Shown here piece by piece: positions 281-43,738 of a stretch of 64,000 nt of DNA. Below the pieces are notes generated by a model, which ran no database searches, was not told where the DNA came from, and saw only the letters and a list, made by a program, of their open reading frames with translations. The position numbers were made by a program, and so were the translations under genes. Within the stretch, counting starts at the first letter, position 1. Every line of letters begins with the position of its first letter. Origin of the DNA: Aquabacterium lacunae (GTDB taxonomy: Bacteria; Pseudomonadota; Gammaproteobacteria; Burkholderiales; Burkholderiaceae_C). The stretch is taken from contig NZ_SIXI01000004.1 in assembly GCF_004310865.1 (NCBI RefSeq), positions 248,001 to 312,000 on the forward strand. Direction: 5' to 3'.

Positions 281-1645
281 TCAGCGAAGCCCAAGGCGGT
301 GCATCAGGTCATACAGAGTGGGTCGGCTGACCCCAAGCAACTCTGCGGCCTGCAACACATTGCCATCCACACGAGCCAGTGCGGTGATGACCGCACGGCG
401 TTCAGCCATCTCACGCACCTTGCGCAGGTCGAGCCCCTCGTCCGGCGACAACGACTCATCCAGCGGAGGCAAGCCGAGGTCGTCCGGCAGGATGCGCGGG
501 CCATCTGCCATGATGCAGGCGCGCTTGATGCAATTTTCCAACTCTCGAATATTGCCAGGCCAGGCGTGGTGCTCAATGGCGCGCACGGCCTCGGGAGACA
601 GGGACAAGGCGGCTCGCCCTGGCTGGGTGGCAAACCGCGCCACAAAAGCATGAGCGATCAGCACGGCATCACCCAAGCGCTGGCGAAGCGCTGGGATCTC
701 GACCACGATTTCTGCCAGGCGATAGAAGAGATCTTCGCGGAACTGCCCCTGCGCGATCAGTTGCTTGAGATCCTGGTGGGTCGCACACACGATGCGCACA
801 TCCACACTGATCTCCTGACGCCCGCCCACGCGCTCGATGACTCGCTCCTGCAAAAAGCGAAGCAGCTTGGCTTGCAGAGGCAACGGCAGGTCACCGATTT
901 CGTCCAGCATCAAGGTGCCACCGTGCGCGGTCTCGATCTTGCCTTGAGTGGTCTTGACCGCCCCCGTGAATGCACCTTTTTCATGCCCGAACAACTCTGT
1001 TTCAAGCAGATTTTCGGGAATGGCAGCGCAGTTGATCGCCACGAATTTGCCGGTATGGCGGCCGCTGGCCTGGTGCAGCCCTCTGGCCATGACCTCTTTG
1101 CCTGTGCCACTCTCGCCCAGCAGCATGACCGTGGCATCGGTGTTGGCCACTTTTTCGATCATGCGGCATACCTTCAGCATACCGGGGTCGCGGGTGATCA
1201 GCCCCGCCATGGCGTCAGGCGCCTGGGCATGGCGCAAGCGGCGATTTTCCTGCTGCAACTCGTGCAACCGGAAAGCGCGCTCCACGGTCAGGGCCAAAAC
1301 CTCCGGCTCGAAGGGTTTGGCCAGAAAATCATATGCGCCCTCGTCCACGGCCTTGAGCGCATGCGCTTGATCGTTCTGTCCCGTCAACACAATGACCTTC
1401 GTGTCTGGGAACGCTGCCATGATCTCGGCCAGCAAGGCAAAGCCTTCGGTGGCATGGTCGGCGGCTGGAGGCAGGCCCAGGTCCATGGTCACCACAGGTG
1501 GCTGATGGCGTCTCATCAACGCCATGGCCTCCTGTCGGTCAGCTGCCGCCACAGACTCCAGGCGATCGAGCGACCAGCGAATCTGCTTTTGCAAGGCCAG
1601 ATCGTCTTCCACGACCAGGACGGAAGGGGTTTTCGCTTGGCTCAT
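281..1645 (-). CDS. prsR: PrsR, sigma-54-dependent response regulator of the PEP-CTERM system
   Basis: 454 residues in the classic NtrC order. A receiver domain (about 8-125) has acidic residues E13/D14/D15, phospho-acceptor D55 and K110. An AAA+ domain (about 145-380) has Walker A GESGTGKE at 177-184 and the sigma-54 contact loop GAFTGA at 224-229. A Fis-type helix-turn-helix ends the protein (about 410-454). It overlaps the prsK stop by ATGA, and a GGAG lies 8 bases before the start, so both genes are cotranscribed. Family knowledge (TIGR02915): PrsR activates sigma-54 promoters of PEP-CTERM genes. A perfect sigma-54 site lies before the PEP-CTERM gene at 43991. Confidence 0.95.
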   Translation of the reverse strand: MSQAKTPSVLVVEDDLALQKQIRWSLDRLESVAAADRQEAMALMRRHQPPVVTMDLGLPPAADHATEGFALLAEIMAAFPDTKVIVLTGQNDQAHALKAVDEGAYDFLAKPFEPEVLALTVERAFRLHELQQENRRLRHAQAPDAMAGLITRDPGMLKVCRMIEKVANTDATVMLLGESGTGKEVMARGLHQASGRHTGKFVAINCAAIPENLLETELFGHEKGAFTGAVKTTQGKIETAHGGTLMLDEIGDLPLPLQAKLLRFLQERVIERVGGRQEISVDVRIVCATHQDLKQLIAQGQFREDLFYRLAEIVVEIPALRQRLGDAVLIAHAFVARFATQPGRAALSLSPEAVRAIEHHAWPGNIRELENCIKRACIMADGPRILPDDLGLPPLDESLSPDEGLDLRKVREMAERRAVITALARVDGNVLQAAELLGVSRPTLYDLMHRLGLR

Positions 1646-3696
1646 GGTCGCACTCCGGCCTCAGGCACCCCGAGCGTGCCCGTGTCCAGCAAGGGCAGCA
1701 TCAAGCTGATCCGGGTACCGCCCCCAACCTTGCTGTCCACATTCATCTTGCCCCCCAACTCTTGCACGTATTGAGCGCTCTCGAATGCACCAATGCCCAT
1801 GCCTGCAGACTTGGTGGTCTGAAAAGGCCGGAAAAGGCGCGCACGGACAAACTCTTCGCTCATGCCGACACCATTGTCCTGGACTTCCAGGCAAGCATGG
1901 CTGCCAAATCGGTGCGACTTGACCCACACCCGGTGTCCGGTCGATTCCGTAGCGTCCAACGCATTGTGGATCAGATGTCCGACCACACGCGCCAGACGTT
2001 CTTCGTGGCCTCGCGCCCAAAGCCCTGGCTGAAGATCGAGATCCAGCTCGCGGCCCCGGGCCTTGGCCAAGGGCAGCGCGCCTTCCACAACTTTGGCCAG
2101 ATCAACCCCGACAGGGCCGCCTGAGGCCGGGCTGCCGCCCTCCCTCAGCTGCAACATCAGCTGCTTCATGCGCTCGAGCGCGTTGTCCACGGTCATGACC
2201 ATGTCGTCCTGAAACTCGGGGTTGTCCTTGAGGCGACGCGCATTTTTGGTCATCAAAGACAGCTGAGTGACGATGTTCTTGAGGTCATGAACCACAAAGG
2301 CCGACATGCGATTGAACGATTCGAACTGTCGGGCTTGCATCAAGGCTTCCGAGGCGCGCAGTTGGGCCAGGACGCTGGCAGCCTGACACGCTGCAGTCTT
2401 GAGCAAGTCTGTGACTTCCCAGTTGATGTCCCAGGCCGTGCGAGACGCTGCCAGCACCACAAAACCGATGTCCTCCCCACCTATTTTCAAAGGCACGATG
2501 AGCCAAGCAGCCTCGAGTTCGGCCAGCCAACGCGGCACATCGACCCGGTCGTAACGTTCCGGGTGCTGCCGATGCTCGACCAGATTGATCACCCATCCCG
2601 TCTTCGCCATGAAGCCCATCAGCGGCGAGTCAGCCGGCTCGGTGCACACAGCCTCAGGCATGTTCCACCGCGCCACTTGCGCGAAGGCATCGCTGCCCAG
2701 CGGCCGAAGCCACAGGGCACCACCCGGGCTTTCGACCATGCCTGCAAGCCCCTGAATGACCCGCTGGTTCAAGGCATCCGGATCATGGTGTGCCGACAGC
2801 GCTCGGGTGAACTTGAGCCACTCGTCGCGGTAGTCGTAGCGATAACGGAAAAAGTGCTTGCCCAGCCAGACCCGCAGGGTGGCCCGTACCGTGCCCGAAA
2901 GCGCAAAAGCCACCAACAGCACCAATGCGCAGAACATGAGGCCGACGCGCAGCACCTGCCCCACGTCACCACCAAACAGCTGGATGTAATAGCCCGAGGC
3001 GGCCACCAGCATCAAGTAACAACCCGCCAGCAAAGCAGACAGTGAGTGGAAGGCCACCTGCCTGGAGAGCTTGATGCGCTGAGCCCAATTGTGCTGACGC
3101 CAGCCCGCCACCATCAGCAGGGGGACCATCAGGGCGTGCACATACCCGCGAGCGGCCAAGGTCGACGCATCCAGGCGGCCCAGGATCGCGGCTTCTGAGA
3201 ACAAATAAAAATCGAACAGGAAGGTGCCCGCCAACCCCAGACAGACAGGCTTGATGCCCCATCGCCCGTCCACGGACACCCCCCGGTAAACCTGCTCGAT
3301 CAGGACCAGTCCGGTGACCGCCATCAACGTGAATGCCAAATGGCTGCCAGTCAAGCCGCCCCACAAGGGCAACAGGATGGCAAGGACGGCCACCACACGA
3401 TCAAATGCGATCGAGCGGACACCACTGACACGCCGGCGCGTCAAAAGCCACCAGAGGCTGAGGATCCAAAAGGCATAGCGCAAGGCATCGAGCCAACGTT
3501 CGGCCAGCACCCAGGGAGAATCGAACCAGACCGTGAACGGCGCGCTGGCGGCCCAGGCGATTGAAATGACAGCGGCTGGCAGCAACAGCCGACTGCCTTG
3601 CCGGTTGCGCCATGCGAACAGCACCCACACGGCAAGCGCCATGTGGGCAAGCCCGGCCATGACCAGCCCGGTCAGCAACAGCTGAGGCTGAGTCAT
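1642..3696 (-). CDS. prsK: PrsK, membrane histidine kinase of the PEP-CTERM system
   Basis: 684 residues. The N-terminal ~270 residues hold many hydrophobic segments, followed by a GAF-like sensory region (about 290-440). The phospho-acceptor is H470 in the FVVHDLKNIV motif. The ATPase domain shows the N box (HLIHNALDATE) and G1 box (DNGVGM). The start was placed at MTQPQLLL because the upstream in-frame extension overlaps the preceding sugar transferase gene and is not protein-like; this leaves an 11-base gap to that gene. It is the partner kinase of PrsR (TIGR02916). The ligand is unknown. Confidence 0.93.
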   Translation of the reverse strand: MTQPQLLLTGLVMAGLAHMALAVWVLFAWRNRQGSRLLLPAAVISIAWAASAPFTVWFDSPWVLAERWLDALRYAFWILSLWWLLTRRRVSGVRSIAFDRVVAVLAILLPLWGGLTGSHLAFTLMAVTGLVLIEQVYRGVSVDGRWGIKPVCLGLAGTFLFDFYLFSEAAILGRLDASTLAARGYVHALMVPLLMVAGWRQHNWAQRIKLSRQVAFHSLSALLAGCYLMLVAASGYYIQLFGGDVGQVLRVGLMFCALVLLVAFALSGTVRATLRVWLGKHFFRYRYDYRDEWLKFTRALSAHHDPDALNQRVIQGLAGMVESPGGALWLRPLGSDAFAQVARWNMPEAVCTEPADSPLMGFMAKTGWVINLVEHRQHPERYDRVDVPRWLAELEAAWLIVPLKIGGEDIGFVVLAASRTAWDINWEVTDLLKTAACQAASVLAQLRASEALMQARQFESFNRMSAFVVHDLKNIVTQLSLMTKNARRLKDNPEFQDDMVMTVDNALERMKQLMLQLREGGSPASGGPVGVDLAKVVEGALPLAKARGRELDLDLQPGLWARGHEERLARVVGHLIHNALDATESTGHRVWVKSHRFGSHACLEVQDNGVGMSEEFVRARLFRPFQTTKSAGMGIGAFESAQYVQELGGKMNVDSKVGGGTRISLMLPLLDTGTLGVPEAGVRP

Positions 3697-3707
3697 GCCC
3701 ACCAGGC

Positions 3708-5096
3708 TCACTGCGCGCCCTTCCCTGTCAGCACCACCCCGATGGTTTCGAAGAGGACAACCAGATCGAGAAAGAGCGAGTGGTTCTTGACGTAGTACAG
3801 GTCGTACTGCAGCTTCTGGGTGGTGTCTTCCAGCGTCGAGCCGTACTGGTAGCGGACCTGCGCCCACCCGGTCACGCCGGGCTTGATGCTGTGACGGACC
3901 GCATAAAAAGGAATCTGCTGGGTGAGTTGTTCAACGAAGAACTGCCGCTCGGGACGGGGCCCGACCAGGCTCATGTCCCCCTTGAGCACACTGAACAACT
4001 GAGGCAGTTCGTCGACGCGGCATTTTCGGATCACGCGCCCCACGCGCGTGACGCGGCTGTCACCCGCGGTGGCCCACCGAGGAACGCCGTCTTTTTCAGC
4101 GTCGGTACGCATGCTGCGGAACTTGACGACATGAAAGAGGCGCCCTCCCTGCCCAACACGCTCCTGGCTGTACAGGATCGGACCACGGCTGTCCAGCTTG
4201 ATCAGGATGGCGGTCAGGAGCATCACGGGAGCGGCCAGTGCCAGCAACACCAGAGAGCCCATCAGGTCGACCAGGCGCTTGACGAGGGTGCGAACCATGC
4301 CCTGCTCGAAGCCATCACCAAAGATCAGGTACCCAGCCGACATGGTGTCCAGGCGAATCTGCCCCACTTTTTGCTCGAAGTGGGTGGCCACGTCCATGAC
4401 CCGAACCCCGTCAAGCTTGCAGTCAAGCAGATCGCGCATGGGCATGCTGCCACCACGCCGCTCGGTCAAGGCGACAATGATTTCATCGACCTCCTGCTCG
4501 ACCACGATGTCGGACAGCTTGCGAGGGTGCCGGTACAGCCGTTGCGAGGGCATGTCGATCTGCGTTTCGTTGGGGCTGACATAAAAACCCACCACATCCA
4601 CACGCGGATCGCTCTGCAACAGCGACTCGGCGGCCGCCTGCGCCCTCAGCCCAGCACCGTAGATCAGCACGCGGGTGCGTGTGACGGACGCTGGCAGCAT
4701 CGACACACTCAACTCGCGCTGCAAGATGACCAGGGCCTTGGCGGCCATGAGCACCGCAAAAACCAGCCAGATGCTCTTGTCAATGACCTTTGGCATGAGA
4801 ACCAGAAGGCCCAGCGTGATGGCGCCTGAGGCCACCCAGGCCACGCCAGCGCGGATGCGCATCACGCCCAGAGAGAAGGAACGCGCGTTTTCGTACAAGC
4901 CCAGGGTGGCATTGACCATGACGAAGTTGGCCGCCACCAGCGCTCCGGTGAGGGATGCGTCCAGGATGGAAACCGGTTTTCTCAGGCTGGCCTGCAGCCA
5001 GACCGCAAAAAAAGCGGCCACCATGACCGCAGCGGCCTCCACCGCCACCTGCAAAGCCGACCGTTTGTGAAAATAGTGCCCGAAGATTTTGATCAT
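3708..5096 (-). CDS. XrtA-system initiating sugar-phosphate transferase (TIGR03013 type)
   Basis: 462 residues with N-terminal membrane segments, a CoA/NAD-binding-like middle domain (VLIYGAGLRAQAAAESLL) and a C-terminal bacterial sugar transferase domain with KFRSMRTDAEKDG and the DELPQLFSVLKGDMSLVGPRPE signature. Such enzymes move a sugar-1-phosphate onto undecaprenyl phosphate in the inner membrane, the first step of lipid-linked repeat-unit synthesis. The start at MIKIFGHYF is preferred over the ATG 18 bases upstream because GGAAG lies 8 bases before it and family members begin with this motif. It sits directly before prsK. The sugar (often glucose) cannot be read from the sequence. Confidence 0.92.
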   Translation of the reverse strand: MIKIFGHYFHKRSALQVAVEAAAVMVAAFFAVWLQASLRKPVSILDASLTGALVAANFVMVNATLGLYENARSFSLGVMRIRAGVAWVASGAITLGLLVLMPKVIDKSIWLVFAVLMAAKALVILQRELSVSMLPASVTRTRVLIYGAGLRAQAAAESLLQSDPRVDVVGFYVSPNETQIDMPSQRLYRHPRKLSDIVVEQEVDEIIVALTERRGGSMPMRDLLDCKLDGVRVMDVATHFEQKVGQIRLDTMSAGYLIFGDGFEQGMVRTLVKRLVDLMGSLVLLALAAPVMLLTAILIKLDSRGPILYSQERVGQGGRLFHVVKFRSMRTDAEKDGVPRWATAGDSRVTRVGRVIRKCRVDELPQLFSVLKGDMSLVGPRPERQFFVEQLTQQIPFYAVRHSIKPGVTGWAQVRYQYGSTLEDTTQKLQYDLYYVKNHSLFLDLVVLFETIGVVLTGKGAQ

Positions 5097-5159
5097 GTGC
5101 GGCGCTTCCGGCATTGAAACTGCCGGACATCGCTCCGAAACTACTGGTAACAGGCGATC

Positions 5160-7079
5160 TTACGCGGATCCCTTCACTCGAGCACTCCCTAAAAGAAGCG
5201 TCCAACCGAGCAGGAAATGCAACAGAAATGCCACGCGGGGGAACTCATGTGCGCTGATCAAGAGGCCCAGCAAAGCCATGCTCCCCACCGCAGCATGCAG
5301 CCCAGCCCACCGGAGAGCCGCTCCTGAGCGCAAAGCCCAGAGCGCCATCCCACCGAAAATGATCAGGCCAACCACACCACGCTCAAGCCCAACCTCCAAA
5401 AAGAGGTTGTCACTGTGCCAGGGGACAAAGTGTCGGGTCGCGACCGGCCACCACCCGGATAAACCCTCAGTGAATTGCCAATTGCGCCCCGTCATGGTCT
5501 TTCCAGCCTGACGCCAGCGAACTTCAAACACACGGATTTCAGCGCCAGGACTCAAGACGGAAAGCGTCACTTGCTGAGGGACCCGTGACCGCGCCGCACC
5601 CCCCGGAGGTTTTGGGGCCGATGCCGGCCACTCCCACGACCGAGTCACCACCCCAAGACTTGCAGGCCAGTTCACATCCAGCGACTCACACTGCATCGGA
5701 TGAAACAGCCACTGATCACACCGACTGATGCGCACCGTCAGGTCCCGATTCGACCGGGCTGTCAGCGCAAATCCATCAGGCCCGCTGCTGCCCCACGAAA
5801 CCGCCTGGTTGAGGCCAAACGCTCCACCAAGATCTGCCCGAGTGGGCGGCCCTGCCAAAAGCAAGTGGGCGGGGAGCCCGGCCGCCGGCGGCACCCAGCG
5901 GGCCCGACCGGCCATCTCAGCCGAGCCGGTCGAGGCACTGTACGCAGCGGGCACTTGGGCCAAGCCCAATCCGGCCACCCAATGTGTGGTCGAGGTCATC
6001 AGCGTCAGTTGCTGCCCCCAGTGACGCCATCGGCCCACAGCGTCAGCGGTGCTCTGCTCCAAGCGACTCACCGCAAAACTGGCAGACACCACCAAGGCCA
6101 GCCACCACAGGGTCAATGCGCCAGAGATCCAGCCGTGCATCAGGCGCCGATGAGGGCTGACCTGACGCCACACGGGCCGCACCGCCAGCCCATGCAACCA
6201 CAACACCCCAACGGCTGAGGCAACCAGGACACCCCGCGAAAATGTCGTGACCACCGCGTAGATGCCCAAGGCCACCAGACCCGCCCACATGCACCGGCTG
6301 GCCGTTGACCGTGCCAGCCAGAGCGACCACCACGTCCAAGGCAAGGCCATCGCAAGATAGGCATCGATTGCGCCCCCTCCAAGGCTCATGTCCCAGAACG
6401 TCCCCGCCGTTCGGTACTGGGTTGCCATGTCCCAGACGCCCACCGTGACATGGCGCTCCCAGACAACGGCCAGACCGACCCAGCACAACCCTGCGCACAT
6501 GGCTGTGCGCCAGCAAGACAAGGTGCGGGCGCGGGCCAGCCAGGGAGACAGCAGCCACAGGGTCAGCACCGGCCAGACCGATCCGCGAAGCGCACGCCAT
6601 GGCGCTGCAGCGCCCTCGTGGTCGGCCCATCGCCAACCCTCGTGCCAGGGCACCACCACCGCTGCGTCAAGGTGACGCAAGCCCTGGAAAACGCCCCAAA
6701 AGGCCCACGACCACAGAAGCAACCAAGCGGCAGGATGACCGAACTCCAACGCCTGGGGTGGCGCCTCACCGTGTGACCTCTGCCGCCACCGGGCCAGGCA
6801 CCAGCCGCCCGCCGATGCCGCAACGAGCAGTTCGAACTCGTCCACCTGCCGCCATCCAGTCCACAGTCCCGCATGGGCCAGGGGCAGGCATGTCAACAAG
6901 ACAGCCATGCTGAACACCGGACGAACAGCCCCTAGCCAGCACCAGGGCATCAACCAGAACACCGCTGACCAGCCACCGAACCAGGGGTGAGCATGCAACA
7001 CAGCCGCTGACCACGCCAGCAGGCCCAGGGCACCGCCCCACCACGCAGTCGTCACGGCAGACGAAGCCCAGCGACTCAC
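5160..7079 (-). CDS. O-antigen ligase/polymerase-like membrane protein
   Basis: 639 residues with about ten hydrophobic segments in the first ~350 residues and two or three near the C-terminus. Between them (about 375-560) lies a long, Pro/Trp-rich, polar insertion likely outside the membrane. The start is a GTG that overlaps the decarboxylase stop (GTGA), so it belongs to the same operon. Wzy/WaaL-type proteins polymerise or transfer undecaprenyl-linked glycans at the periplasmic face. Function is inferred from topology and context; no catalytic residues could be assigned. A second ligase-like protein is at 26241-27596. Confidence 0.7.
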   Translation of the reverse strand: MSRWASSAVTTAWWGGALGLLAWSAAVLHAHPWFGGWSAVFWLMPWCWLGAVRPVFSMAVLLTCLPLAHAGLWTGWRQVDEFELLVAASAGGWCLARWRQRSHGEAPPQALEFGHPAAWLLLWSWAFWGVFQGLRHLDAAVVVPWHEGWRWADHEGAAAPWRALRGSVWPVLTLWLLSPWLARARTLSCWRTAMCAGLCWVGLAVVWERHVTVGVWDMATQYRTAGTFWDMSLGGGAIDAYLAMALPWTWWSLWLARSTASRCMWAGLVALGIYAVVTTFSRGVLVASAVGVLWLHGLAVRPVWRQVSPHRRLMHGWISGALTLWWLALVVSASFAVSRLEQSTADAVGRWRHWGQQLTLMTSTTHWVAGLGLAQVPAAYSASTGSAEMAGRARWVPPAAGLPAHLLLAGPPTRADLGGAFGLNQAVSWGSSGPDGFALTARSNRDLTVRISRCDQWLFHPMQCESLDVNWPASLGVVTRSWEWPASAPKPPGGAARSRVPQQVTLSVLSPGAEIRVFEVRWRQAGKTMTGRNWQFTEGLSGWWPVATRHFVPWHSDNLFLEVGLERGVVGLIIFGGMALWALRSGAALRWAGLHAAVGSMALLGLLISAHEFPRVAFLLHFLLGWTLLLGSARVKGSA

Positions 7080-8284
7080 ACCAGCAACTCGACCGCAGCA
7101 GGGTGGCTCAGGAATGCCGCAGGGCTTGCGGACGCACCGTAGGCGCCCGACTGGAAAACCACCAGCAAATCACCAGGAGAGGCTCTCGGAAGTGTCACTG
7201 CCTGGCCGAATGTATCCAAGGGCGTGCAAAGGGGGCCGCTGACCGTGACGTCTTCGGTGGGAAGGCCCGCGTGGAGGCGATTGCCCAGGCACATCGGGTA
7301 CGGGCGTCTCAACACCTGGCCCAGGTTGCCACTGGCAGCCAGGTGGTGGTGCATGCCACCGTCAATGACGACATGAACGCGTCCACTTGAGACTTTTCGC
7401 TCCATGACCTGCGCGACATAAATGCCCGCCTCTCCAACCAGGAATCGACCCAACTCGATCACCACACGGGCCTGCGGCCACTCGCGGGCCACGCGCTGGC
7501 CAATCACCTCCAGGCCTGTGCGCATTGGGGCAAGGTCCAGCGCCTGTTCATGCGCGAAATAGGGGATGCCCCAACCGCCCCCCAGGTTCAACGATCGAAC
7601 CGGAGCAGGCAGCATGGGCTGCCAGGCCTTGAGCATGTCCAGCGTGCGGTGCATGGCCTGAAGCAACACCTCTGCCTGCAGAACCTGTGATCCTGCGTAC
7701 ACATGGAAGCCCTCGAACAACAAGGCGGGATGGGCCGCCAGGGTCAACGCTTCTGGTACGTCTGCAGCGTCCAGACCAAAGACCTGTCCAGCCCCTCCCA
7801 TGCGCATGCCAGCGGTACGCAGCTCGACATCCGGATTGACGCGCAGGCCCACGCGGGCCCGAATGTGCAACTGCTCGGACACGACGATGATTCGATTGAG
7901 CTCAGCCAAAGACTCCACGTGTAGCAAGACACCAGCGGCCACCGCTTGCCTCAGCTCGGCATCACGCTTGGCGGGCCCAGCAAAACTGATGGACTGTGGC
8001 GCACCCCCCGCGTTGAGCGCGGCGGTCAACTCGGCTGCCGATGCCACGTCCATGCCGTCCACCCGGCTGGCCAGCCAACTCAGCAACGCAGGCATCGGGT
8101 TGGCTTTCACGGCGTAATGCAGATGAAAAACCGGAGGCAGCACGCCACGCACCTCCTCCACGCGTCGCGCGAGGGAGAGCCGCTCGATGGCAAAAAAAGG
8201 GGTCTGTCCAGCACGCTCTGCCAGACGTGACAACGGCACCCCCCCCAAGCACAACTGCCCTGCATTCACCTCAAATCCACGCAT
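7076..8284 (-). CDS. PLP-dependent decarboxylase, exosortase A system-associated (TIGR03099 type)
   Basis: 402 residues of the alanine racemase-like fold III, as in diaminopimelate and ornithine decarboxylases. The PLP lysine is K60 in HYAVKANPMP. The phosphate-binding GGG lies in SLNLGGGWGIPY, and the C-terminal region has the CTPLDTF cysteine-aspartate motif. The start MRGFEVNAG is chosen because GGAGG lies just upstream; it overlaps the ligase gene end by 14 bases. It probably decarboxylates an amino acid, free or tethered to the carrier protein at 9911. The substrate is unknown. Confidence 0.9.
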   Translation of the reverse strand: MRGFEVNAGQLCLGGVPLSRLAERAGQTPFFAIERLSLARRVEEVRGVLPPVFHLHYAVKANPMPALLSWLASRVDGMDVASAAELTAALNAGGAPQSISFAGPAKRDAELRQAVAAGVLLHVESLAELNRIIVVSEQLHIRARVGLRVNPDVELRTAGMRMGGAGQVFGLDAADVPEALTLAAHPALLFEGFHVYAGSQVLQAEVLLQAMHRTLDMLKAWQPMLPAPVRSLNLGGGWGIPYFAHEQALDLAPMRTGLEVIGQRVAREWPQARVVIELGRFLVGEAGIYVAQVMERKVSSGRVHVVIDGGMHHHLAASGNLGQVLRRPYPMCLGNRLHAGLPTEDVTVSGPLCTPLDTFGQAVTLPRASPGDLLVVFQSGAYGASASPAAFLSHPAAVELLV

Positions 8285-9875
8285 GAGACCTCCATACGAC
8301 ACGGTCCAGCTTGCCATTCGGATTTCTTGGCAGGTCTTCGCTCACCCACACCACATGTCGTGGACACAGATAGGCCGGCGCGTGTTGCCGAAAATGCGCC
8401 AGCAAAGCCCGTGTGGCGTCATGGCCAGCCTCTCCCCCAGCAAGGGCTGAGACAGCCAGGCAGATCTTTTGCCCGAGTGCCGGATCATCCAGACCGATCG
8501 CCACCGCCTCCCGGGCCAGACCGGAGGCCAGCGCGACCTGTTCAACCTCGGTGGGGCTGACCCGATACCCCGATGTCTTGATCATTTCGTCAGTCCGCCC
8601 CACGAAGTACAGAAACCCGTCTTCGTCTTTCCTCACGAGATCTCCAGAGTACACCGCCTGCTCAGGCGGCGTCTCTTGAGTGCCCGTCGCGCCTGCGGGC
8701 GGCCAGGAACGAAATCTCAGCGATTGATCCTCCGGACGCCGCCAGTAGCCCAGCGAGACCAATGGCCCTGCATGCACCAGCTCCCCGATCTCGCCGGGCG
8801 CACATGCTTGCCCCTGTGCATTGATCACATGAACTTCGGCATAAGGAATGGCTCTGCCCATGGAATCAGGTCGTTGAGACAACTCCTGCGGCGGCAGGTA
8901 GGTCGACCGAAACGCTTCAGTCAGCCCGTACATCAGAAAGGGAGTGGCCTGTGGCGCTTTGGCTTGCATGGCTCGCAACACGGGTATCGGCATGCGCCCG
9001 CCGGTGTTGGCCCAGAATCGGAGCGAATCGGCACACCCCTCTGGCCACTCCAATGCCACCAGCTGGCTGAACAGCGGTGGCACTGCCGTGATGCCAGTCA
9101 CCCGATGACGCGCGATGGCCTTGAGCACATCCTGCGGAAACAGGTGATTCAGCAGCGCCACCTGGGCGCCACTCCACAGGGCGGTCGTGAGCTGACTGAA
9201 ACCCGCATCAAATGACAGGGGCAGCACCGCCAGCAGCACATCGTCAGGGCAGAGCGAAAGGTAAGAGGACACGCTGACGGCTCCCGCAATCAGATTGCGG
9301 TGAGACACCATCACACCCTTGGGCAGACCTGTGCTTCCAGATGTGTAGAAGATGACGGCCAGCCCATCGGGCTTCGCGGCCACACGAGAAACTGGTGCGC
9401 ACGATGGCTGCAGCCACTGCCACGGCGAACCATCATCCGCAGCCGGCAGGATCGCCACCTGCGAGGGCCCCGAATCAGGCCCCTGACCCCACACGGGCGC
9501 CAGCACGGACCAGCGGTTGTCCAGGGTGACGAGGCCCCATGCGTCACAGTCCCGCAGGATGTGATGCACCTGCGCCGCCTTGAGCACCGGGTTGATGGGC
9601 ACCAGCACGCCGCCCGCCATCAAAACGCCCAGCATGGCCGCCACACCGTCGAGGCGCTTGTCGAGCCAGACACCCACGCAATCCCCAGGCTGCAAACCTG
9701 CGTCCAGCCAGGACTGGGCCCAGTGGTTGGCACGCTGAGCCAAGGCGCGGAACGACCACACCTGCTCGGCTGAGCCTGCGGCCGGTCGATCAGGCCACGC
9801 CTCGGCCGCACGCAAGACCACCTGCCCCAGGGTCAAAGGCAAATCGCTCAAGCATGGCAGGTCAATGTCAGACAT
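8271..9875 (-). CDS. AMP-forming acyl/aminoacyl ligase, exosortase A system-associated (TIGR03098 type)
   Basis: 534 residues of the ANL adenylate-forming superfamily. The nucleotide loop YTSGSTGLPKG is at about 177-187. YSGDLV and GRTDEMIKTSGYRVSP are the hinge-region motifs, and NPNGKLDR holds the C-terminal catalytic lysine. It should activate a carboxylic or amino acid and load it on a thiol, most likely the carrier protein encoded divergently 35 bases away. It overlaps the decarboxylase gene. The acid cannot be predicted from these residues. Confidence 0.9.
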   Translation of the reverse strand: MSDIDLPCLSDLPLTLGQVVLRAAEAWPDRPAAGSAEQVWSFRALAQRANHWAQSWLDAGLQPGDCVGVWLDKRLDGVAAMLGVLMAGGVLVPINPVLKAAQVHHILRDCDAWGLVTLDNRWSVLAPVWGQGPDSGPSQVAILPAADDGSPWQWLQPSCAPVSRVAAKPDGLAVIFYTSGSTGLPKGVMVSHRNLIAGAVSVSSYLSLCPDDVLLAVLPLSFDAGFSQLTTALWSGAQVALLNHLFPQDVLKAIARHRVTGITAVPPLFSQLVALEWPEGCADSLRFWANTGGRMPIPVLRAMQAKAPQATPFLMYGLTEAFRSTYLPPQELSQRPDSMGRAIPYAEVHVINAQGQACAPGEIGELVHAGPLVSLGYWRRPEDQSLRFRSWPPAGATGTQETPPEQAVYSGDLVRKDEDGFLYFVGRTDEMIKTSGYRVSPTEVEQVALASGLAREAVAIGLDDPALGQKICLAVSALAGGEAGHDATRALLAHFRQHAPAYLCPRHVVWVSEDLPRNPNGKLDRVVWRSHAWI

Positions 9876-9910
9876 GCTGCGATGTTAAGCGAGGCCTCTA
9901 GAATGAGCGC

Positions 9911-10165
9911 ATGCCTGACCTCCAAGATGTGCTCCACGTGCTGGACCGCGCCCTGCAGTTGCAGGGTCGAGCCCTGCACTTCACGCCCGAAACGCCTTTG
10001 CTGGGGGCCTTGCCTGAGTTGGACTCGATGGGCGTGGTCGCCTTGCTGTCAGAACTGGAAACCCACTTCGGTGTGTTCTTTGACGACAGTGCCATCAGCG
10101 CAGACTCTTTCGCCACGGTGGCGCAAGTGTGCAAACTGGTCGAGCAGGCCACGGCCTCTTCCTGA
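9911..10165 (+). CDS. acyl carrier protein of the XrtA-associated ligase/decarboxylase group
   Basis: 84 residues, acidic and helical, with the phosphopantetheine attachment serine S39 in the ELDSMG motif. This is the normal length for a stand-alone carrier protein. It heads a three-gene plus-strand operon with two hydrolases; only one base separates its stop from the next ATG. It is divergent from the AMP-forming ligase with 35 bases between starts, so the two sets probably share control. It likely carries the acid activated by that ligase. Confidence 0.9.
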   Translation: MPDLQDVLHVLDRALQLQGRALHFTPETPLLGALPELDSMGVVALLSELETHFGVFFDDSAISADSFATVAQVCKLVEQATASS

Positions 10166-10166
10166 C

Positions 10167-11036
10167 ATGGGCACGCCAGCCGGGACGCCCATCCACTTCA
10201 CTGGCACACGCGGCCCCCTGTTCGGCGTCTTGCACCAGCCCTGTTCTGCCCATTTCAAAGGACTGGTGCTGCTGCTGCCACCTTGGGGAGAAGAACTCAA
10301 TCACACCCGGCGACTGGTGCGACAGGCGGCCACACGAATGGCCGACATGGGGTGGATGGTGCTGCGCCATGACCCCTGGGGCTGCGGCGACAGCGGTGGA
10401 GAGCTTCACGAAGCCACCTGGCGCGACTGGCAGAACGATGCTTTGCAAGCCTGGGAGTGGCTCACGCGGCAAGCACCCACAGCCCATGCCGGCGGCCTGA
10501 GTCATTGGGTGTGGGGCGTTCGGGCCGGCGCCTTGATGTCGGCATCGCTGCTTGACGCCTTCCAGGGACGGACGTCGGCTTTGGCATCTCCGCAACATGT
10601 GCTTTGGTGGCAGCCCGTGCTGCACGGCAAGCACATGGTTCAGCAATGGCTGCGGCAACAACAGGCTGCACGCTGGACTCGGAGCGATGCCACCACCACG
10701 ACGCAAGCCACCACAGCCCCGACCTTGTGGCTGGGAGGGCAAGCGCTGTCAGCCGATCTGCTGGACCATATGCAACGGTGCCCCATGCCCAATCCCCCCC
10801 AAGGCGCAAGGCACCTGGTGTGGCTGGACACCGCGGCACCCGACACCATCGCCTCCACGCCCCACCCAACCCCAGCGCAAGCGCTGACCCTGCAGGCTTG
10901 GCAGGCTGCAGGCTGCAGTGCCCATTGGCAGAATGTCGAGGGCCCGAACTACTGGTTGACGCTGGGTCTGGAAAGTGCGTCGCACCTGCTGGACCAAACA
11001 CTCGCATGCATGGACGCTGCACATGGCTCCCCCTGA
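10167..11036 (+). CDS. alpha/beta hydrolase-like protein, exosortase A system-associated hydrolase 2 (TIGR03101 type)
   Basis: 289 residues with an alpha/beta-hydrolase beginning (LLLPPWGEELNHTRR) and the strand-turn HDPWGCGDSGG. The place of the nucleophile elbow reads GVRAG (117-121), so the usual serine is not there. That suggests a modified activity or a non-catalytic role, though the alignment was made by eye. It starts one base after the ACP stop and overlaps hydrolase 1 by 14 bases. It may act on acyl-ACP. Confidence 0.85.
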   Translation: MGTPAGTPIHFTGTRGPLFGVLHQPCSAHFKGLVLLLPPWGEELNHTRRLVRQAATRMADMGWMVLRHDPWGCGDSGGELHEATWRDWQNDALQAWEWLTRQAPTAHAGGLSHWVWGVRAGALMSASLLDAFQGRTSALASPQHVLWWQPVLHGKHMVQQWLRQQQAARWTRSDATTTTQATTAPTLWLGGQALSADLLDHMQRCPMPNPPQGARHLVWLDTAAPDTIASTPHPTPAQALTLQAWQAAGCSAHWQNVEGPNYWLTLGLESASHLLDQTLACMDAAHGSP

Positions 11037-11949
11037 TCTCTGCACAACCCCTCAAGACTGGGTCAGCATTGACAGCCTGTGCTTTGAGCGCGCGGTACCC
11101 CTGACCTTGTCACCTGCGCCTGCAATCGCACCCATCCACAGCATGGCCATCTTGAGCCGTCCTGCCCGCGCGCACCGCTCTGGCATCTGCGTGGTGATGC
11201 TGTCGGGCGGGCTGCAGGCACGCACAGGCGCCCATCGCATGTTCACCACCCTGGCCCGAGCGCTGGCCGCAAATGGCCACAGTGCTGTGCGGTTTGACTG
11301 GCCTGGGCTGGGCGATGCAGATGGATCGGCAATGCCGTTTGAACAACTGGCCCCCATGCTGCCGCAGCTCCAACAGCAGTGCTTGGCGGCGATGCCTGAC
11401 ACAGACCGCATCGTGTGGCTCGGGCTGTGTGATGGCGCATCGGTGGCACTGATGCATTTGGCAGACCCAACCACCGTCCGACCAGATGCCCTGATCCTGC
11501 TGAACCCCTGGGTGCGCAGCGAGCAAAGCCAGGCCCAGACCGTGGTGCGGCACTACTACAAGCAACGCCTGCTCGAAGGCAGTTTCTGGCGCAAATTGTT
11601 GAGTGGCCAGGTGGGGCTGGATGCTGCCCGATCGGCCAGCCGCCTTCTGAGGGCCAGTCGACAACGCACGCCCGCCCAACCGGGCTTTCAGCAGCAGATG
11701 GCCAAAGGCTGGAAAAACTTCGGTCGCCCCCTGTGGCTGGTCGTGGCGGGTCAGGACCTCACAGGGCTGGAATTCATGGAACATGCGGGGCGCGATCTTG
11801 CTTGGCGCGGCGCTTTGGAGGCCCCCGCGGTCCATGTGTCCACCATGGCGGGCGCCGACCACACGTTCTCAGGGTCACAGGACATGCCAGAACTCATTCG
11901 GCTGATGATGGAGTGGTTGTCCGCGCAATGGCCGCAAGGCCCCAATTGA
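11023..11949 (+). CDS. alpha/beta hydrolase, exosortase A system-associated hydrolase 1 (TIGR03100 type)
   Basis: 308 residues from the start MAPPDLC. It shows the hydrolase strand FDWPGLGDADG and a nucleophile elbow GLCDG with C136, i.e. a cysteine where serine is usual. A late histidine (GADHTFSG) and DALILLNPW fit the fold. A thioesterase or transferase role on ACP-bound intermediates is an inference from the operon. Its 3' end overlaps the convergent acetyltransferase gene by 56 bases. The start is not supported by a strong ribosome site. Confidence 0.87.
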   Translation: MAPPDLCTTPQDWVSIDSLCFERAVPLTLSPAPAIAPIHSMAILSRPARAHRSGICVVMLSGGLQARTGAHRMFTTLARALAANGHSAVRFDWPGLGDADGSAMPFEQLAPMLPQLQQQCLAAMPDTDRIVWLGLCDGASVALMHLADPTTVRPDALILLNPWVRSEQSQAQTVVRHYYKQRLLEGSFWRKLLSGQVGLDAARSASRLLRASRQRTPAQPGFQQQMAKGWKNFGRPLWLVVAGQDLTGLEFMEHAGRDLAWRGALEAPAVHVSTMAGADHTFSGSQDMPELIRLMMEWLSAQWPQGPN

Positions 11950-12937
11950 CACGTTGCCGCGCTGAGGCCAGGCACACGCCCCCCACATGCCTCAGCAATG
12001 CAGGCCAACACCTTGGGTCACGCCAGCGAAACGCCACGAGTCCCCACAGTGGGCGCCTCACGCTCATCCAGTCCTTTTTATAGGCGTCGTCGCCCATCAG
12101 GAAGTCCACCGTCGACACCCTGTCCACGTCCATGACATGGGCCATCATGGCCGCCAACAACACCGACCCCACTGACAAGGCGTCGAATCCTGGCCGCTGG
12201 GCCAGCTTGTAGATGTCTGCCTGACCGTCGTGCACCAGCCAGACCTGAGCTGCCACCACCTCTCCGTCCAGGCGCAAAAGCCCCAAGCGCAGTGCACCTT
12301 GTTCAGCCGCCAGGCTCATCAAACCGGGCATGAACTGCGGGCACGGCTCAACACCTTTCCAGCTGTCGGCATACACCGCCTGGTAAGCCTCAATGGCCTC
12401 GCTCAGCACCTCTCCAGGCTCTGACACGATGTCGATGGATGTGCTGCTGCGGCGCGCCAATTTGCGACGCGCACGCTGCACGGTGTTTCGCAAGCGCGAC
12501 GGACGCTCGGCCCAGTAGGCTTCAAACCCGCCCGCCAGGGAGACAGGCTCCAGCCAGTTCACGCCACACTCAAAGTGCCAGCACGCAAAACCCGCCAAGC
12601 GAAGGGCTCGCTCAACATCCGACACCCAGAGGTCAGACGCACGGAATGGCTGCAGCCTGACCGAATGCACCTCAGTGCGACGCTTCAACCACCTCGCGCC
12701 GGCCTGTGGATCGATCGGGGCGGCGGAAAGGCCAGGCCCTCCGCAGGGCCCGAAACGCGGTGTGTAGTAACTGCTCAGCGAATACAGTGCCCCTCCCGCT
12801 CGCACCACAGGCAGGGCCACACCAGCCTCGGCGACGGCGCACTGAGCCCAGTTCAAGCGCTCGTCCCCCGAGCGAGGAAAGCCATGGTCCCACAGCAGGT
12901 CGAACCACTCGGGCTGCTGGTAGAGGCACTGGCTCAC
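11894..12937 (-). CDS. GNAT/FemAB-like acyltransferase (BioF2-like)
   Basis: 347 residues. The middle and C-terminal part (YWAERPSRLRNTVQRARRKL, then EAYQAVYADSWKG and a LRLDGEVVAAQVWLVHDG strand pair) resembles the Acetyltransf_6/FemAB-like GNAT proteins common in polysaccharide clusters. These move an acyl or aminoacyl group onto a sugar amine or peptide amine in the cytoplasm. It is translationally coupled (ATGA) to the beta-helix gene upstream, and its 3' end runs into hydrolase 1 on the other strand. The exact substrate is unknown. Confidence 0.7.
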   Translation of the reverse strand: MSQCLYQQPEWFDLLWDHGFPRSGDERLNWAQCAVAEAGVALPVVRAGGALYSLSSYYTPRFGPCGGPGLSAAPIDPQAGARWLKRRTEVHSVRLQPFRASDLWVSDVERALRLAGFACWHFECGVNWLEPVSLAGGFEAYWAERPSRLRNTVQRARRKLARRSSTSIDIVSEPGEVLSEAIEAYQAVYADSWKGVEPCPQFMPGLMSLAAEQGALRLGLLRLDGEVVAAQVWLVHDGQADIYKLAQRPGFDALSVGSVLLAAMMAHVMDVDRVSTVDFLMGDDAYKKDWMSVRRPLWGLVAFRWRDPRCWPALLRHVGGVCLASARQRVNWGLAAIARTTTPSSAE

Positions 12938-14319
12938 TGCAGGGCCCCCACCAGCAACGCACGCCCCTTGGGCAAGGGCTCCACCCTCAACGGATGGCGA
13001 TAGACCTCCGTCAGGGCTGACACCTCGGCGCCATCCACAAGTGGCGGGCTGTCAGCCACCCATTCAGGTTGCCAGTGCCCGGGCCGCAGATCACCCGCCT
13101 GCGCGTCCTGCACTGCATCAAGGCCCACCCGCAGGTTCCCGCCACTGGGCACCCCCTCCGGAACACGCCAAGTACCCCGTCCCACCACCAGATTGCGCCA
13201 CACCTGTCCGCCTGACAACGGTCCTGCCACCTGCAGGAATCGCCCACCGAAAGGATGCAGATTGACCCAGGAGTTGTGCACCGCATGCAACTCGTTTCTG
13301 GCCCAGGGCTGCCCCTCTTCCAGCATGGAAAGAACAGCCCCGTTCTGAGTGCTGCGAGACTGCCCGATGACGTTGCCAATCAGAAAAACCTGCCCGCCAT
13401 TCGGGAAGTTCAACTCATAGCTGGCTTGCCCCCCCGGGTTGTCTGTGATGCGGTTGGCCACCAACTTCGACACCTGGGCCCTGCTCTTGACCAGGTGCCC
13501 CACCTTCCCGTGGTGGAAATGGTTGCCACGCAACTCCAGCAAGCGGATGCGCCCGGCATACACCGCATGCGCATAGCCCATGCCATCACCCAGGCGCGCG
13601 AACTCAGTGAAAGACACTTGCACTTCGGTTGTTGCCTCATCAGGATCGCCGTTGATCAGAATCCCTGACTCACTGTCCTGAAAAACACAATGCTCGACTC
13701 TGAGGCGACCACCCTCGAACCGGATACCAGCGCCGTTGCGGTCCGCCACACGCGCGCCCTGGAAGGCCAGGTGACGCACCTCAAAGCTGCCGCCGCCCAG
13801 GACCAGCAGGGCCTTGCCTTCGGCCAGATCCGAACTTGCCATCAATCGGGCCAGGCCACCGTCGCCCCGGATCGAGACGCTTTTGCCGCGCCAGACCGCG
13901 CCATTTGTCCAATGGACTCCCGGCTGCAGCAAGACCACGTCCCCGTCAACTGCTTGCGCAGCTGCGTCGGCCAGGCTGCCCACCCTCTTGCGCGTTTCCC
14001 CTCGCAGCAACCAGATCGCAGGGGATTCCTGGAAGGGGTTCAAGGAGCCTGGCACCTCCCGCATGGCCGACGGCTCGACTGACGAATCAGGAGAAGCAGG
14101 CACATCGCTGTCGAGTTGGTCGTTCAACCACCTCATGGCACCCAGCGCAGGAGAGCCCAGCATCTGAAGACGGGGGTGACCATCCAGCCGCCGCTCCAGA
14201 TGACGCAAGATCTCCAAAGGAATGAAGCCGGAGCAGTCCCAGCAAGCCACCAGTCCAGCGCTGATGACAATCGCCACACAGGCACCAGCAGCGACGAGAA
14301 AATGCCTGAAACGTTTCAT
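12934..14319 (-). CDS. exported right-handed beta-helix repeat protein
   Basis: 461 residues from MKRFRHF, with an N-terminal membrane or signal segment (about 6-28). From about residue 130 the sequence runs in short beta turns typical of parallel beta-helices (VLLQPGVHWTNGAVW, HCVFQDSESGILING, LLELRGNHFHHG, LVANRITDNPGG). Such folds occur in polysaccharide lyases, epimerases and glycan-binding proteins. It sits in the glycan locus facing away from the GT2 gene at 14454, so a role on the exported polymer is inferred. An in-frame ATG at 14352 is an alternative start; neither has a strong ribosome site. Confidence 0.72.
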   Translation of the reverse strand: MKRFRHFLVAAGACVAIVISAGLVACWDCSGFIPLEILRHLERRLDGHPRLQMLGSPALGAMRWLNDQLDSDVPASPDSSVEPSAMREVPGSLNPFQESPAIWLLRGETRKRVGSLADAAAQAVDGDVVLLQPGVHWTNGAVWRGKSVSIRGDGGLARLMASSDLAEGKALLVLGGGSFEVRHLAFQGARVADRNGAGIRFEGGRLRVEHCVFQDSESGILINGDPDEATTEVQVSFTEFARLGDGMGYAHAVYAGRIRLLELRGNHFHHGKVGHLVKSRAQVSKLVANRITDNPGGQASYELNFPNGGQVFLIGNVIGQSRSTQNGAVLSMLEEGQPWARNELHAVHNSWVNLHPFGGRFLQVAGPLSGGQVWRNLVVGRGTWRVPEGVPSGGNLRVGLDAVQDAQAGDLRPGHWQPEWVADSPPLVDGAEVSALTEVYRHPLRVEPLPKGRALLVGALQ

Positions 14320-25173: not shown

Positions 25174-26244
25174 TCAAACTCCTGACGTATGCTGAACCGG
25201 CAGACGCAAGCTGCCGGCGAAGATCAGAGAATGCAGGCCAGTCACCCTGTGTCTCATCCACTTCGCCATCCAGACAGGCACAGCGACGGACAAGACAAAA
25301 ATGAACGCCCCGATCAGCAAAGGATGCTCCGACAACCAGGGCCCTTTGGCAGCCAGCCTGAAAAGCGGCACTTGAATGAACTGATGGAGCAGAAAGATCT
25401 CAAGGCTGAACTGTCCGATCGTGCGAAACAGGCTCAATCGACCAGCCCCAATGCGGGACATCAGGCACAACATGAGCAGTCCCATCAGGTTGGCTGCCAA
25501 CAGAGCCAGGAACCAACCTGGCTGGGCAATGCCTGGCAATGCAAAGGTACCCACCTCAAATTGGCGGTCGGATTGCATCACCCACAGATGAGCCGCTGCA
25601 GCTCCAGCGGTCACGGCCAGCAAAGCAAGCACATGACGCCATCGCGAACCCGCGATGTACATGCCAACCCACGACAGGCATGGCCACACCAGGGCGCAGA
25701 TCGCCAGGGCATGGAGTGCAGGGCCACACCCCCACCAGAGCACGGCGCCACCAGAAATCTTCAGCAATTCGGCTGGCCATAACAATGCGACCCCAGCAGA
25801 GCCCAGCACAAGGCCTCGGGCCCAGACACTGTCGCGCTGTGCAAACTTTCCAAGCAGCACAAAGGTCAGCAAGGCCGGCAGGAACCACAACACGGACATG
25901 CCGCAACCGTCCTTGATGACGCCCATGCCGGCTTGCATCAGGCCGGTGACAAATCGCTCATGTTCAAAAGCGCCCAGCATCAACCACTGCCCCAAGGCCG
26001 CCAAAGCGTAAAACACCAGCCAAGGCACCAGGTACCGAGGCGTTCGTTTGCGGAGAAAAGTCCAGCCATCATCTTGGTTGCGATCAAGTCCGATCCTTGA
26101 GACCAGGAAGAATGCCAGCACATGCACCGTCAAAGGATGAAACCAGGACGGGGCGACCAGCCGAAATCCATCGTTGTGATCAGCAACGACCAGGAGGATG
26201 GCAAGGGCCTTGAGGCCGTCCAGATGGATCCAGCGGTGATTCAT
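25174..26244 (-). CDS. membrane acyltransferase family protein
   Basis: 356 residues from MNHRWIHLDGLK with about ten hydrophobic segments. LDGLKALAILLVVADHND places the expected histidine in the first helix, as in acyltransferase 3 proteins. The start was set by the ATGA overlap with the O-ligase gene; the longer in-frame reading would cover that gene. It probably acylates the glycan or its lipid-linked unit. Confidence 0.85.
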   Translation of the reverse strand: MNHRWIHLDGLKALAILLVVADHNDGFRLVAPSWFHPLTVHVLAFFLVSRIGLDRNQDDGWTFLRKRTPRYLVPWLVFYALAALGQWLMLGAFEHERFVTGLMQAGMGVIKDGCGMSVLWFLPALLTFVLLGKFAQRDSVWARGLVLGSAGVALLWPAELLKISGGAVLWWGCGPALHALAICALVWPCLSWVGMYIAGSRWRHVLALLAVTAGAAAAHLWVMQSDRQFEVGTFALPGIAQPGWFLALLAANLMGLLMLCLMSRIGAGRLSLFRTIGQFSLEIFLLHQFIQVPLFRLAAKGPWLSEHPLLIGAFIFVLSVAVPVWMAKWMRHRVTGLHSLIFAGSLRLPVQHTSGV

Positions 26245-43046: not shown

Positions 43047-43676
43047 TCAGAACAGGCCTTGGGGAATGATCAGCACGTCGCCAGGCTGCATCTCGACGTT
43101 GGCCGAAATGTCACCTCGCTTGATCAGATCATGAAGCCGAACGGCATAGCGTTTGTTGCCTTCGGCAGCACGAACCAAGGTGGCGCGGTTGCCGTCGGCA
43201 AAGTCAGTGAGCCCGCCCACCGCGATCATGACGTCCAGCACTGACATTTTCTGTTTGAAGGGAAGCGCCTGCGGACGTGCCGCCTCGCCAACCACTCGGA
43301 TCTGCTGGCTGTAGGGCCCGACGAACCCCGTGACGATCACCGTGACCACAGGATCACGAACAAATTTGCCGAGGGCGCCTTCGATGTCACGCGCCAGTTG
43401 CGCCGAGGTCTTGCCCTGAGCCACCAACTCTTCCACCAGAGGCGCAGAGATTTTGCCGTCAGGGCGCACAGGCACCGACATGGACAACTCAGGGTTGCGC
43501 CACACCGTGATGCTCAAGGCGTCGCCCGGACCGATGATGTAATCAGACGACCCACTTTCGACCACCGCGGGCGCCGCGGGGTGGGGGCTGGAGGCACACC
43601 CGGCCAACCAGGCCGCAAGCATCATGACAGTGCACCAGCGAACAAGGGCCGACACGCCCGCATGGAAGAACCTCAA
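43047..43676 (-). CDS. Wza-type exopolysaccharide export lipoprotein (TIGR03027 type)
   Basis: 209 residues. A TTG start is chosen because GGAGG lies 5 bases before it, and the reading then gives a clean signal peptide ending in lipobox LAGC. The polysaccharide export domain (YIIGPGDALSITVWRNPELS) and SLBB-type segment (YSQQIRVVGEAARPQAL) follow. It forms the periplasmic/outer membrane export ring. It is the first gene of the 17-gene minus-strand operon and is divergent from the PEP-CTERM gene. Confidence 0.9.
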   Translation of the reverse strand: MRFFHAGVSALVRWCTVMMLAAWLAGCASSPHPAAPAVVESGSSDYIIGPGDALSITVWRNPELSMSVPVRPDGKISAPLVEELVAQGKTSAQLARDIEGALGKFVRDPVVTVIVTGFVGPYSQQIRVVGEAARPQALPFKQKMSVLDVMIAVGGLTDFADGNRATLVRAAEGNKRYAVRLHDLIKRGDISANVEMQPGDVLIIPQGLF

Positions 43677-43723
43677 GACAACCTCCAGATGTAAGAATTC
43701 CTTCAGACCGAAGGCACTGTATC

Positions 43724-43738
43724 GCAATCCGACACCCA
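43724..43738 (-). promoter_or_regulatory. possible sigma-54-like promoter of the export operon
   Basis: On the minus strand the sequence reads TGGGTG, 5 bases, TTGC. GG and GC are spaced 12 apart as required for sigma-54, but three of the six -24 bases differ from TGGCAC. It would place the transcript start some 35 bases before the TTG start. Confidence 0.3.

Follow-up and report, generated by a model that had tools for sequence, protein, structure and literature searches.

In the D-alanylation system, a stand-alone ligase and a stand-alone carrier protein (DltA and DltC) load an amino acid that is destined for a surface polymer, and the side-chain product of the butirosin pathway decorates an antibiotic. 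The butirosin decarboxylase BtrK is listed in the Protein Data Bank (PDB) under the molecule name L-glutamyl-[BtrI acyl-carrier protein] decarboxylase, a name that describes its substrate as a carrier-bound amino acid. VinN of the vicenistatin pathway is the enzyme that loads 3-methylaspartate. According to PMC11284099, thioester formation must precede decarboxylation in the VinN-VinL-VinO system, and aspartate is the acid loaded by FlvN of a related pathway. Here we describe a unit of five genes, encoding a decarboxylase, an adenylating ligase, a carrier protein and two proteins of the alpha/beta-hydrolase fold, in a 64,000-nucleotide stretch of DNA from Aquabacterium lacunae (contig NZ_SIXI01000004.1, positions 248,001 to 312,000), which is referred to as the window. 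We lean towards the view that this unit makes an omega-amino acyl group on the carrier and hands it on.

Gene organization of the unit

The decarboxylase gene (7076-8317, minus strand) matched the NCBIfam family TIGR03099 with 521.7 bits (cut-off 478.45). It overlaps the gene of the stand-alone adenylating ligase (8271-9875, minus strand), which matched TIGR03098 with 613.5 bits (cut-off 592.35). The plus strand carries the genes for the stand-alone carrier protein (9911-10165; PF00550, 21.2 bits, cut-off 20.8; Ser39 in an LDSMG motif), hydrolase 2 of the alpha/beta-hydrolase fold (10167-11036; TIGR03101, 162.2 bits, below the cut-off of 202.75) and the alpha/beta hydrolase called hydrolase 1 (11023-11949; TIGR03100, 215.4 bits, cut-off 168.45). 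The two hydrolase genes also overlap, and the spacing between the carrier and hydrolase 2 genes is 1 base. Because of these overlaps and the 1-base spacing, the ligase and decarboxylase genes on one side and the carrier, hydrolase 2 and hydrolase 1 genes on the other look like operons. The coordinates and the sequence place a gap of 35 bases (9876-9910) between the divergent starts of the ligase and carrier genes, and the open reading frames (ORFs) of all five genes are intact. Coordinates, profiles and open frames thus agree with an original prediction, made from the DNA letters alone, of five genes in two divergent operons that start 35 bases apart.

The families TIGR03098 to TIGR03101, which NCBIfam names as exosortase A system-associated, are all of the NCBIfam type hypoth_equivalog, and a function is given for none of them. 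TIGR03098, TIGR03099 and TIGR03100 were matched over their own cut-offs. Hydrolase 2 is a near member of TIGR03101 and, though it scored below the cut-off, agrees with its relatives in gene order and in the Arg residue at its elbow. The setting of the five-gene unit is an XrtA (exosortase A) polysaccharide locus.

Conservation of the unit and its link with exosortase A

Sequences were collected from two sources, between which species may overlap. The class survey covered 143 genomes of the same class with profile cut-offs applied, and 18 of them were counted as decarboxylase genomes (17 over the cut-off, plus G094, in which two contig ends each hold a part of the gene). To make up the 99 loci, the window was joined with 18 stretches taken from 17 genomes of the class survey and with 80 named loci; two of the stretches (L046 and L047) belong to the same genome, G094, and L048 (genome G026), in the lysA score range, was left out. 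The named loci were the best 80 of at least 583 confirmed matches and therefore lean to close relatives. Gene counts refer to the stretch examined around each decarboxylase gene, and some of these stretches end at contig ends. Before residues were counted, rows scoring below 600 bits (ligase), 400 bits (decarboxylase), 70 bits (carrier), 200 bits (hydrolase 1) or 150 bits (hydrolase 2) were dropped, which were mainly contig-end pieces and second, lower-scoring matches. Every row count includes the window sequence.

A ligase gene was present in 95 of the 99 decarboxylase loci, a carrier gene in 69, a hydrolase 2 gene in 56 and a hydrolase 1 gene in 54. Hydrolase 1 never occurred without the carrier or without hydrolase 2, and the order carrier, hydrolase 2, hydrolase 1 on one strand was kept in all 54 of its loci, two of which had an extra piece. 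The frequent presence of the ligase and carrier genes and this fixed order indicate that the grouping is not due to chance. The divergent layout of the window was the commonest, with 31 loci showing exactly that ORF order, followed by the ligase and decarboxylase genes only (28 loci).

Within the class survey, hydrolase 1 and hydrolase 2 were found over their cut-offs in 15 and 10 of the 143 genomes, respectively, all of them inside the group of 18 decarboxylase genomes. XrtA was found over its cut-off in 27 genomes, including 13 of the 18 decarboxylase genomes, and the decarboxylase was not found in 14 of the 27 XrtA genomes. The tie between hydrolase 1 and the decarboxylase (15 of 15) is thus much tighter than the tie of either to XrtA, and the expectation that these families travel with exosortase A does not hold strictly.

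Comparison of the ligase pocket with VinN

The pocket region of the window ligase could be aligned with VinN without gaps, save one or two residues well away from the pocket itself. The VinN chain numbering is the literature numbering plus 16, as counted by hand on the printed alignment. Asp223, Arg323, Phe322, Ala224 and Thr291 of the ligase are equivalent to Asp230, Arg331, Lys330, Phe231 and Ser299 of VinN, respectively. Arg331 of VinN presumably contacts the carboxylate of the substrate. As described in PMC11253843, Asp230 of VinN binds the amino group of the substrate, the loop that carries Lys330 and Arg331, both key residues, lacks one residue compared with alpha-amino acid domains, and Phe231 and Ser299 face this loop.

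Asp223 and Arg323 were present in all 92 ligase rows. The ligase family has the same short b13b14 loop as VinN, with Arg323 aligned to VinN without a gap, and insertions at this loop were seen in the second adenylation domain of LgrA and in one domain of 8xjz. As a control, all of the 11 other aligned adenosine monophosphate (AMP) ligases of the window genome had neither the Asp nor the Arg; among the AMP-binding matches of this genome, L140 and L141 belong to a single ORF, and L142, which scored under the cut-off, is outside the alignment. Four adenylation domains of nonribosomal peptide synthetases (NRPS) kept the Asp and had Val or Ile in place of the Arg. The pocket motif contained SFD in 92 of 92 rows, whereas 7 of the 11 other aligned ligases of the genome had FH or YH there. 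Since the Asp and Arg of VinN are invariant in the family and missing in the 11 other ligases, an amino dicarboxylate is a likelier substrate than a fatty acid, and the sequence comparison thus makes it likely that the ligase activates an amino acid, in line with the earlier proposal of an acid or amino acid.

The remaining pocket positions did not show the Lys330, Phe231 and Ser299 set of VinN. Position 322 was Phe in all 92 rows, whereas two types of pocket were found at positions 224 and 291 with perfect linkage, A224/T291 in 60 rows, including the window, and Y224/S291 in 32 rows. Only positions 224, 263, 289 and 291 separated the two types at more than 90%. The Y224/S291 type (FDYG, TNS) is closer in look to VinN (WDFG, TNS). 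On a quick ligase tree, calculated without a mixture model and with the four type columns and one further column left out, the pocket type changed four times; three is the safer count because one of the changes is that of L045, whose long branch meets that of the window. This pattern of residues looks like a repeated specificity switch in the ligase family. Columns tracking the type elsewhere were limited to one in the decarboxylase (Leu/Ile) and one in the carrier (Gly/Ala), with none in the hydrolases, so a substrate difference is not clearly mirrored in the partner proteins. Ala224, which is smaller than Phe231 of VinN, may leave room for a longer acid; because of this smaller residue, glutamate is our first guess for the A224/T291 type and aspartate the second. 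The branch of the window ligase itself was very long (1.08, versus a median of 0.26), and its pocket and Lys522 were intact.

Relationship of the decarboxylase to BtrK

The best relative of the window decarboxylase among solved structures was BtrK, with 251 bits. The next solved relatives were 6knh, named probable diaminopimelate decarboxylase (144 bits), and another protein named diaminopimelate decarboxylase (128 bits). The alignment showed that the motifs GPLCTPxD and DGGMHHH are common to the window decarboxylase and BtrK, the former reading GPLCTPLD in the window and GPLCTPED in BtrK, compared with CESSD in 3c5q. The C-E-S motif in the C-terminal domain of diaminopimelate decarboxylases is therefore not found in the window decarboxylase, which has CTPLD instead. 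This CTPLD motif was conserved in 98 rows (Cys364 in 98, Thr365 in 97 with Ser in the other, Pro366 in 98, Leu in 97 and Asp368 in 98).

The window decarboxylase is predicted from these comparisons to be a BtrK-like fold III pyridoxal phosphate (PLP) enzyme that acts on a carrier-bound amino dicarboxylate. Fold III decarboxylases need the free alpha-amino acid end of their substrate, so the attachment to the carrier must use another carboxyl group. A further decarboxylase-like gene of the window genome, on contig C11, scored 210 bits against TIGR03099, in the lysA score range, and we read it as lysA.

The carrier protein and the Cys and Arg hydrolases

Ser39, the phosphopantetheine site of the carrier, was conserved in 70 of 70 rows. 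The best NCBIfam match of the carrier was AmcB of cispentacin synthesis, with 33.6 bits, far under the cut-off of 80. Two PF01648 matches in the window genome are candidates for the phosphopantetheinyl transferase.

The original prediction of two odd alpha/beta hydrolases was right about the fold and needs correction at the active site, where the serine of the nucleophile elbow is missing from both proteins. Hydrolase 1 has the elbow G-L-C-D-[GA], with Cys136 in 53 of 54 rows, and Asp245 and His280 were present in 53 and 52 of these rows, respectively. The nucleophile position of hydrolase 2 is occupied by Arg119, and Arg was found there in 55 of 55 rows. Position 192 of hydrolase 2 was Tyr in 51 of the 55 rows and is Gln in the window. 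No His was found among the hydrolase 2 columns conserved at 80%, and there is no recognisable triad. Structure models predicted for the single chains had a mean predicted local distance difference test (pLDDT) score of 84.4 for hydrolase 1 and 89.0 for hydrolase 2. Foldseek searches with both gave feruloyl esterases, lipases and the like among the matches listed, which indicates for these models an alpha/beta-hydrolase fold and no function.

Distant pairs of the two hydrolases were sought through lower-scoring hydrolase matches in genomes without the decarboxylase, and the better-scoring adjacent pairs were examined. There were at least six such pairs in four genomes, and the Arg of the hydrolase 2-like protein and the Cys of the hydrolase 1-like protein were kept in all six. 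Locus L145 contains two pairs, each forming one fused ORF (5911-7758 and 11681-13450). The pairs in L146 (9306-10987) and L147 (8391-10083) adjoin NRPS ORFs, downstream and upstream, respectively, with only three ORFs scanned in these two loci. Those in L148 (4749-6550) and L149 (9065-12575) have a flippase-like gene close by, and L149 has a deacetylase-like gene too. Furthermore, a single ORF of 877 residues in L149 fuses an adenylation and a carrier domain to the Arg protein, and the gene of the Cys protein follows it. These fusions and neighbouring genes are an independent reason to place the ligase, the carrier and the hydrolase pair in one pathway. They suggest a link of the hydrolase pair with amino acyl groups bound to carriers and, in some cases, with glycans.

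Proposed mechanism and alternative explanations

From the gene content, gene order and residues observed, we infer the following catalytic steps. A phosphopantetheinyl transferase, possibly one of the two candidates in the genome, would arm Ser39 of the carrier. By comparison with the VinN pocket, the ligase would bind an amino dicarboxylic acid, with Asp223 holding the alpha-amine and Arg323 the alpha-carboxylate, and would adenylate the side-chain carboxyl group and load it on the carrier; with the pocket type of the window, this acid would be glutamate rather than aspartate. The BtrK-like decarboxylase would then strip the alpha-carboxyl group on the carrier, as BtrK and VinO suggest. Because the dicarboxylate would be joined through its side-chain carboxyl, the product would be an omega-amino acyl group on the carrier, i.e., a 4-aminobutyryl (from 4-aminobutyrate, GABA) or beta-alanyl group. 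The Cys of hydrolase 1 may take over the acyl group as a thioester and deliver it to an acceptor instead of water, while hydrolase 2 with its Arg may position the carrier or the acyl group. In the last and weakest step, the acceptor would most likely be an amino or hydroxyl group of a lipid-linked exopolysaccharide unit. The adjacent gene for a GNAT-like acyltransferase (11894-12937, minus strand; PF13480, 88.2 bits) encodes a candidate helper or partner at this step.

The arming, loading and decarboxylation steps have close precedents in BtrK and VinN-VinL-VinO, by analogy with which they are proposed here. The transfer by the hydrolase pair is suggested by the residues, the fusions and the gene order, and the location of the genes makes a polysaccharide the probable acceptor. 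The earlier idea that an acid is loaded and decarboxylated on the carrier is consistent with the VinN-like pocket and with the BtrK and VinO precedents; the product would be an acyl group that stays bound to the carrier, and not a free amine. The transfer to the glycan or to PEP-CTERM proteins that was proposed with it stays hypothetical. We also put forward, far more tentatively, that the Arg and Cys proteins form a two-subunit acyltransferase moving the amino acyl group from the carrier to surface glycans, and that XrtA polysaccharides bear GABA or beta-alanine in two types set by the four-residue switch of the ligase.

Several observations weigh against an omega-amino acyl group being made and handed on in this way. 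To our knowledge, no member of these families has a known activity. Lys330 and Phe231 of VinN are not kept in the window ligase, which has Phe322 and Ala224, so the exact acid is not fixed. The ligase matched a long-chain fatty acid coenzyme A (CoA) ligase model with 254.2 bits, compared with 254.7 bits for the amino acid adenylation model, both under cut-off. The decarboxylase also matched the lysA model (TIGR01048; 235.3 bits, under the cut-off of 297.9), and 6knh carries CTPKD too, so CTPxD alone is no proof of a BtrK-like substrate. No hydrolase 1 was seen in the stretch examined in 45 of the 99 loci, some of them limited by contig ends, and transfer may therefore have other routes. Five of the 18 decarboxylase genomes had no XrtA over the cut-off; three of these (G008, G044 and G068) had only lower-scoring exosortase matches, and two (G052 and G104) had no match. 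Finally, the ten neighbours scanned in L035, L036 and L044, which come from genomes without XrtA over the cut-off, were not plainly polysaccharide genes and included those for sulfate assimilation, SrfB, GlnE, AsmA and an acyltransferase, among others.

The ligase-decarboxylase pairs that stand beside other genes in genomes lacking XrtA over the cut-off would also suit a pathway in which the hydrolase pair releases a free small molecule, such as a lactam, a short peptide or a signal, and in which the link to the polysaccharide is positional or regulatory only. The NRPS genes adjoining two of the distant pairs point in the same direction. However, the unit sits within a polysaccharide locus, flippase-like genes recur around it, and two other distant pairs lie near flippase genes, so that we regard the release of a free molecule as unlikely. 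A similarly low probability is given to the explanation that the hydrolases are proofreading or housekeeping thioesterases for misloaded carrier and that the GNAT or a FemAB-like protein performs the transfer. Cys hydrolases are able to hydrolyse thioesters, and 29 of the 54 hydrolase 1 loci have a PF13480 gene no more than 6.6 kb away from hydrolase 1 (one match being weak). Ten loci, some limited by contig ends, had the carrier, ligase and decarboxylase genes with no hydrolase gene in the stretch examined, which also fits this explanation. Proofreading leaves unexplained, however, why all 54 loci with the Cys protein also have an invariant Arg protein, and why fusions occur.

The model matches under the cut-offs could even be taken to mean that the ligase is just a fatty acid CoA ligase of the usual sort, lying by accident beside a second diaminopimelate decarboxylase. 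This is very improbable in view of the pocket residues of the ligase, the missing CES motif of the decarboxylase, the occurrence of both genes in one stretch in 95 of the 99 loci, and the other decarboxylase-like gene on contig C11. The formation of an omega-amino acyl group on the carrier and its onward transfer remains the reading that we prefer.

Surrounding genes and promoter sequences

Other genes of the XrtA locus in the window encode its regulator pair of response regulator and kinase (281-3867), a sugar transferase (3708-5114), an O-ligase (26241-27596), XrtA (33148-34836), an export protein (43047-43805) and a PEP-CTERM protein (43991-44956). Profile matches showed that the window also has genes for glycosyltransferases, an amidotransferase, a FemAB-like protein, a deacetylase and chain-length determination. 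No particular connection of the unit with the FemAB-like or amidotransferase genes of the locus was seen, although no separate test for one was made. The recurrent neighbours in the 99 loci, as grouped by rough ORF clustering, were flippase-like genes (31), asparagine-synthase-like genes (30), DegT-type aminotransferase genes (21) and PF13480 GNAT genes (33), which shows that polysaccharide genes often surround the unit.

Some further features were observed in the window, its genome and two of the loci. Below the XrtA cut-off, the window genome (G000) has three more exosortase-like matches, of which two lie on the contig of the window but outside it (C44, 200216-200929 and 206051-206827) and one elsewhere (C62, 67713-68489). 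The ligase-decarboxylase pair lies beside sulfate assimilation genes in L035 (4145-12239) and beside an SrfB gene in L036 (5378-8723); hydrolase 1 over the cut-off was not found in the genome of either locus. Two ORFs of the window (47271-48698 and 49702-51117) matched MocR-like regulator and aminotransferase models below the cut-offs, and they diverge around an ORF (48717-49664) without an NCBIfam match.

A scan of the window for sigma-54 sites with up to one mismatch found none in the unit. The whole window gave 8 matches, compared with a mean of 12.6 in shuffled sequences, and is not above chance. An exact sigma-54-type match, TGGCAC-N5-TTGC, was located at 43934-43948, and the PEP-CTERM gene at 43991 lies 42 bases downstream of it. 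This is in line with the title of PMC9850573, which names an RpoN-dependent PEP-CTERM gene. The other exact match, at 36462, lies within coding sequence.

Significance and comparison with known systems

TIGR03098, TIGR03099 and TIGR03100 were named in no paper found among the open literature matches listed, and no usable paper on polysaccharides bearing GABA or beta-alanyl groups was found among them. A word search of the main text of PMC1569441, the founding PEP-CTERM paper, did not find the words ligase, decarboxylase or hydrolase. The proposed pathway assigns to four hypothetical NCBIfam families a specific chemistry that can be tested at little cost. If it is correct, the surface polysaccharides of bacteria with the unit, which include Zoogloea, Thauera, Massilia, Rhodoferax and Accumulibacter, would carry basic amino acyl groups, which would alter the charge of the polymer, and floc or biofilm properties might depend on the unit. 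The serine-free hydrolase-like pair would then represent a new way of moving carrier-bound amino acids.

The unit resembles the butirosin BtrI/BtrK system in its decarboxylase, for which BtrK is the closest solved relative, whereas BtrJ, the ligase of the butirosin pathway, differs in kind from the window ligase. The unit and the D-alanylation system have in common a stand-alone ligase and carrier; however, we know of no decarboxylase and no Cys/Arg hydrolase pair in the latter, and the window carrier matched the DltC model weakly, with 22 of 68 bits. The likeness to VinN/VinL/VinO and FlvN extends to a stand-alone adenylation enzyme, a stand-alone carrier and a PLP decarboxylase acting after loading, as described in PMC11284099, and VinN also has the pocket Asp and Arg of the window ligase. 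The same source gives the vicenistatin pathway a second ligase (VinM), a transferase (VinK) and an amidohydrolase (VinJ). The host locus of the vicenistatin genes is a polyketide locus, as opposed to the polysaccharide locus of the window. With a hydrolase pair that was matched to no described system, the module would best be classed among the variants of amino acid decarboxylation on a carrier.

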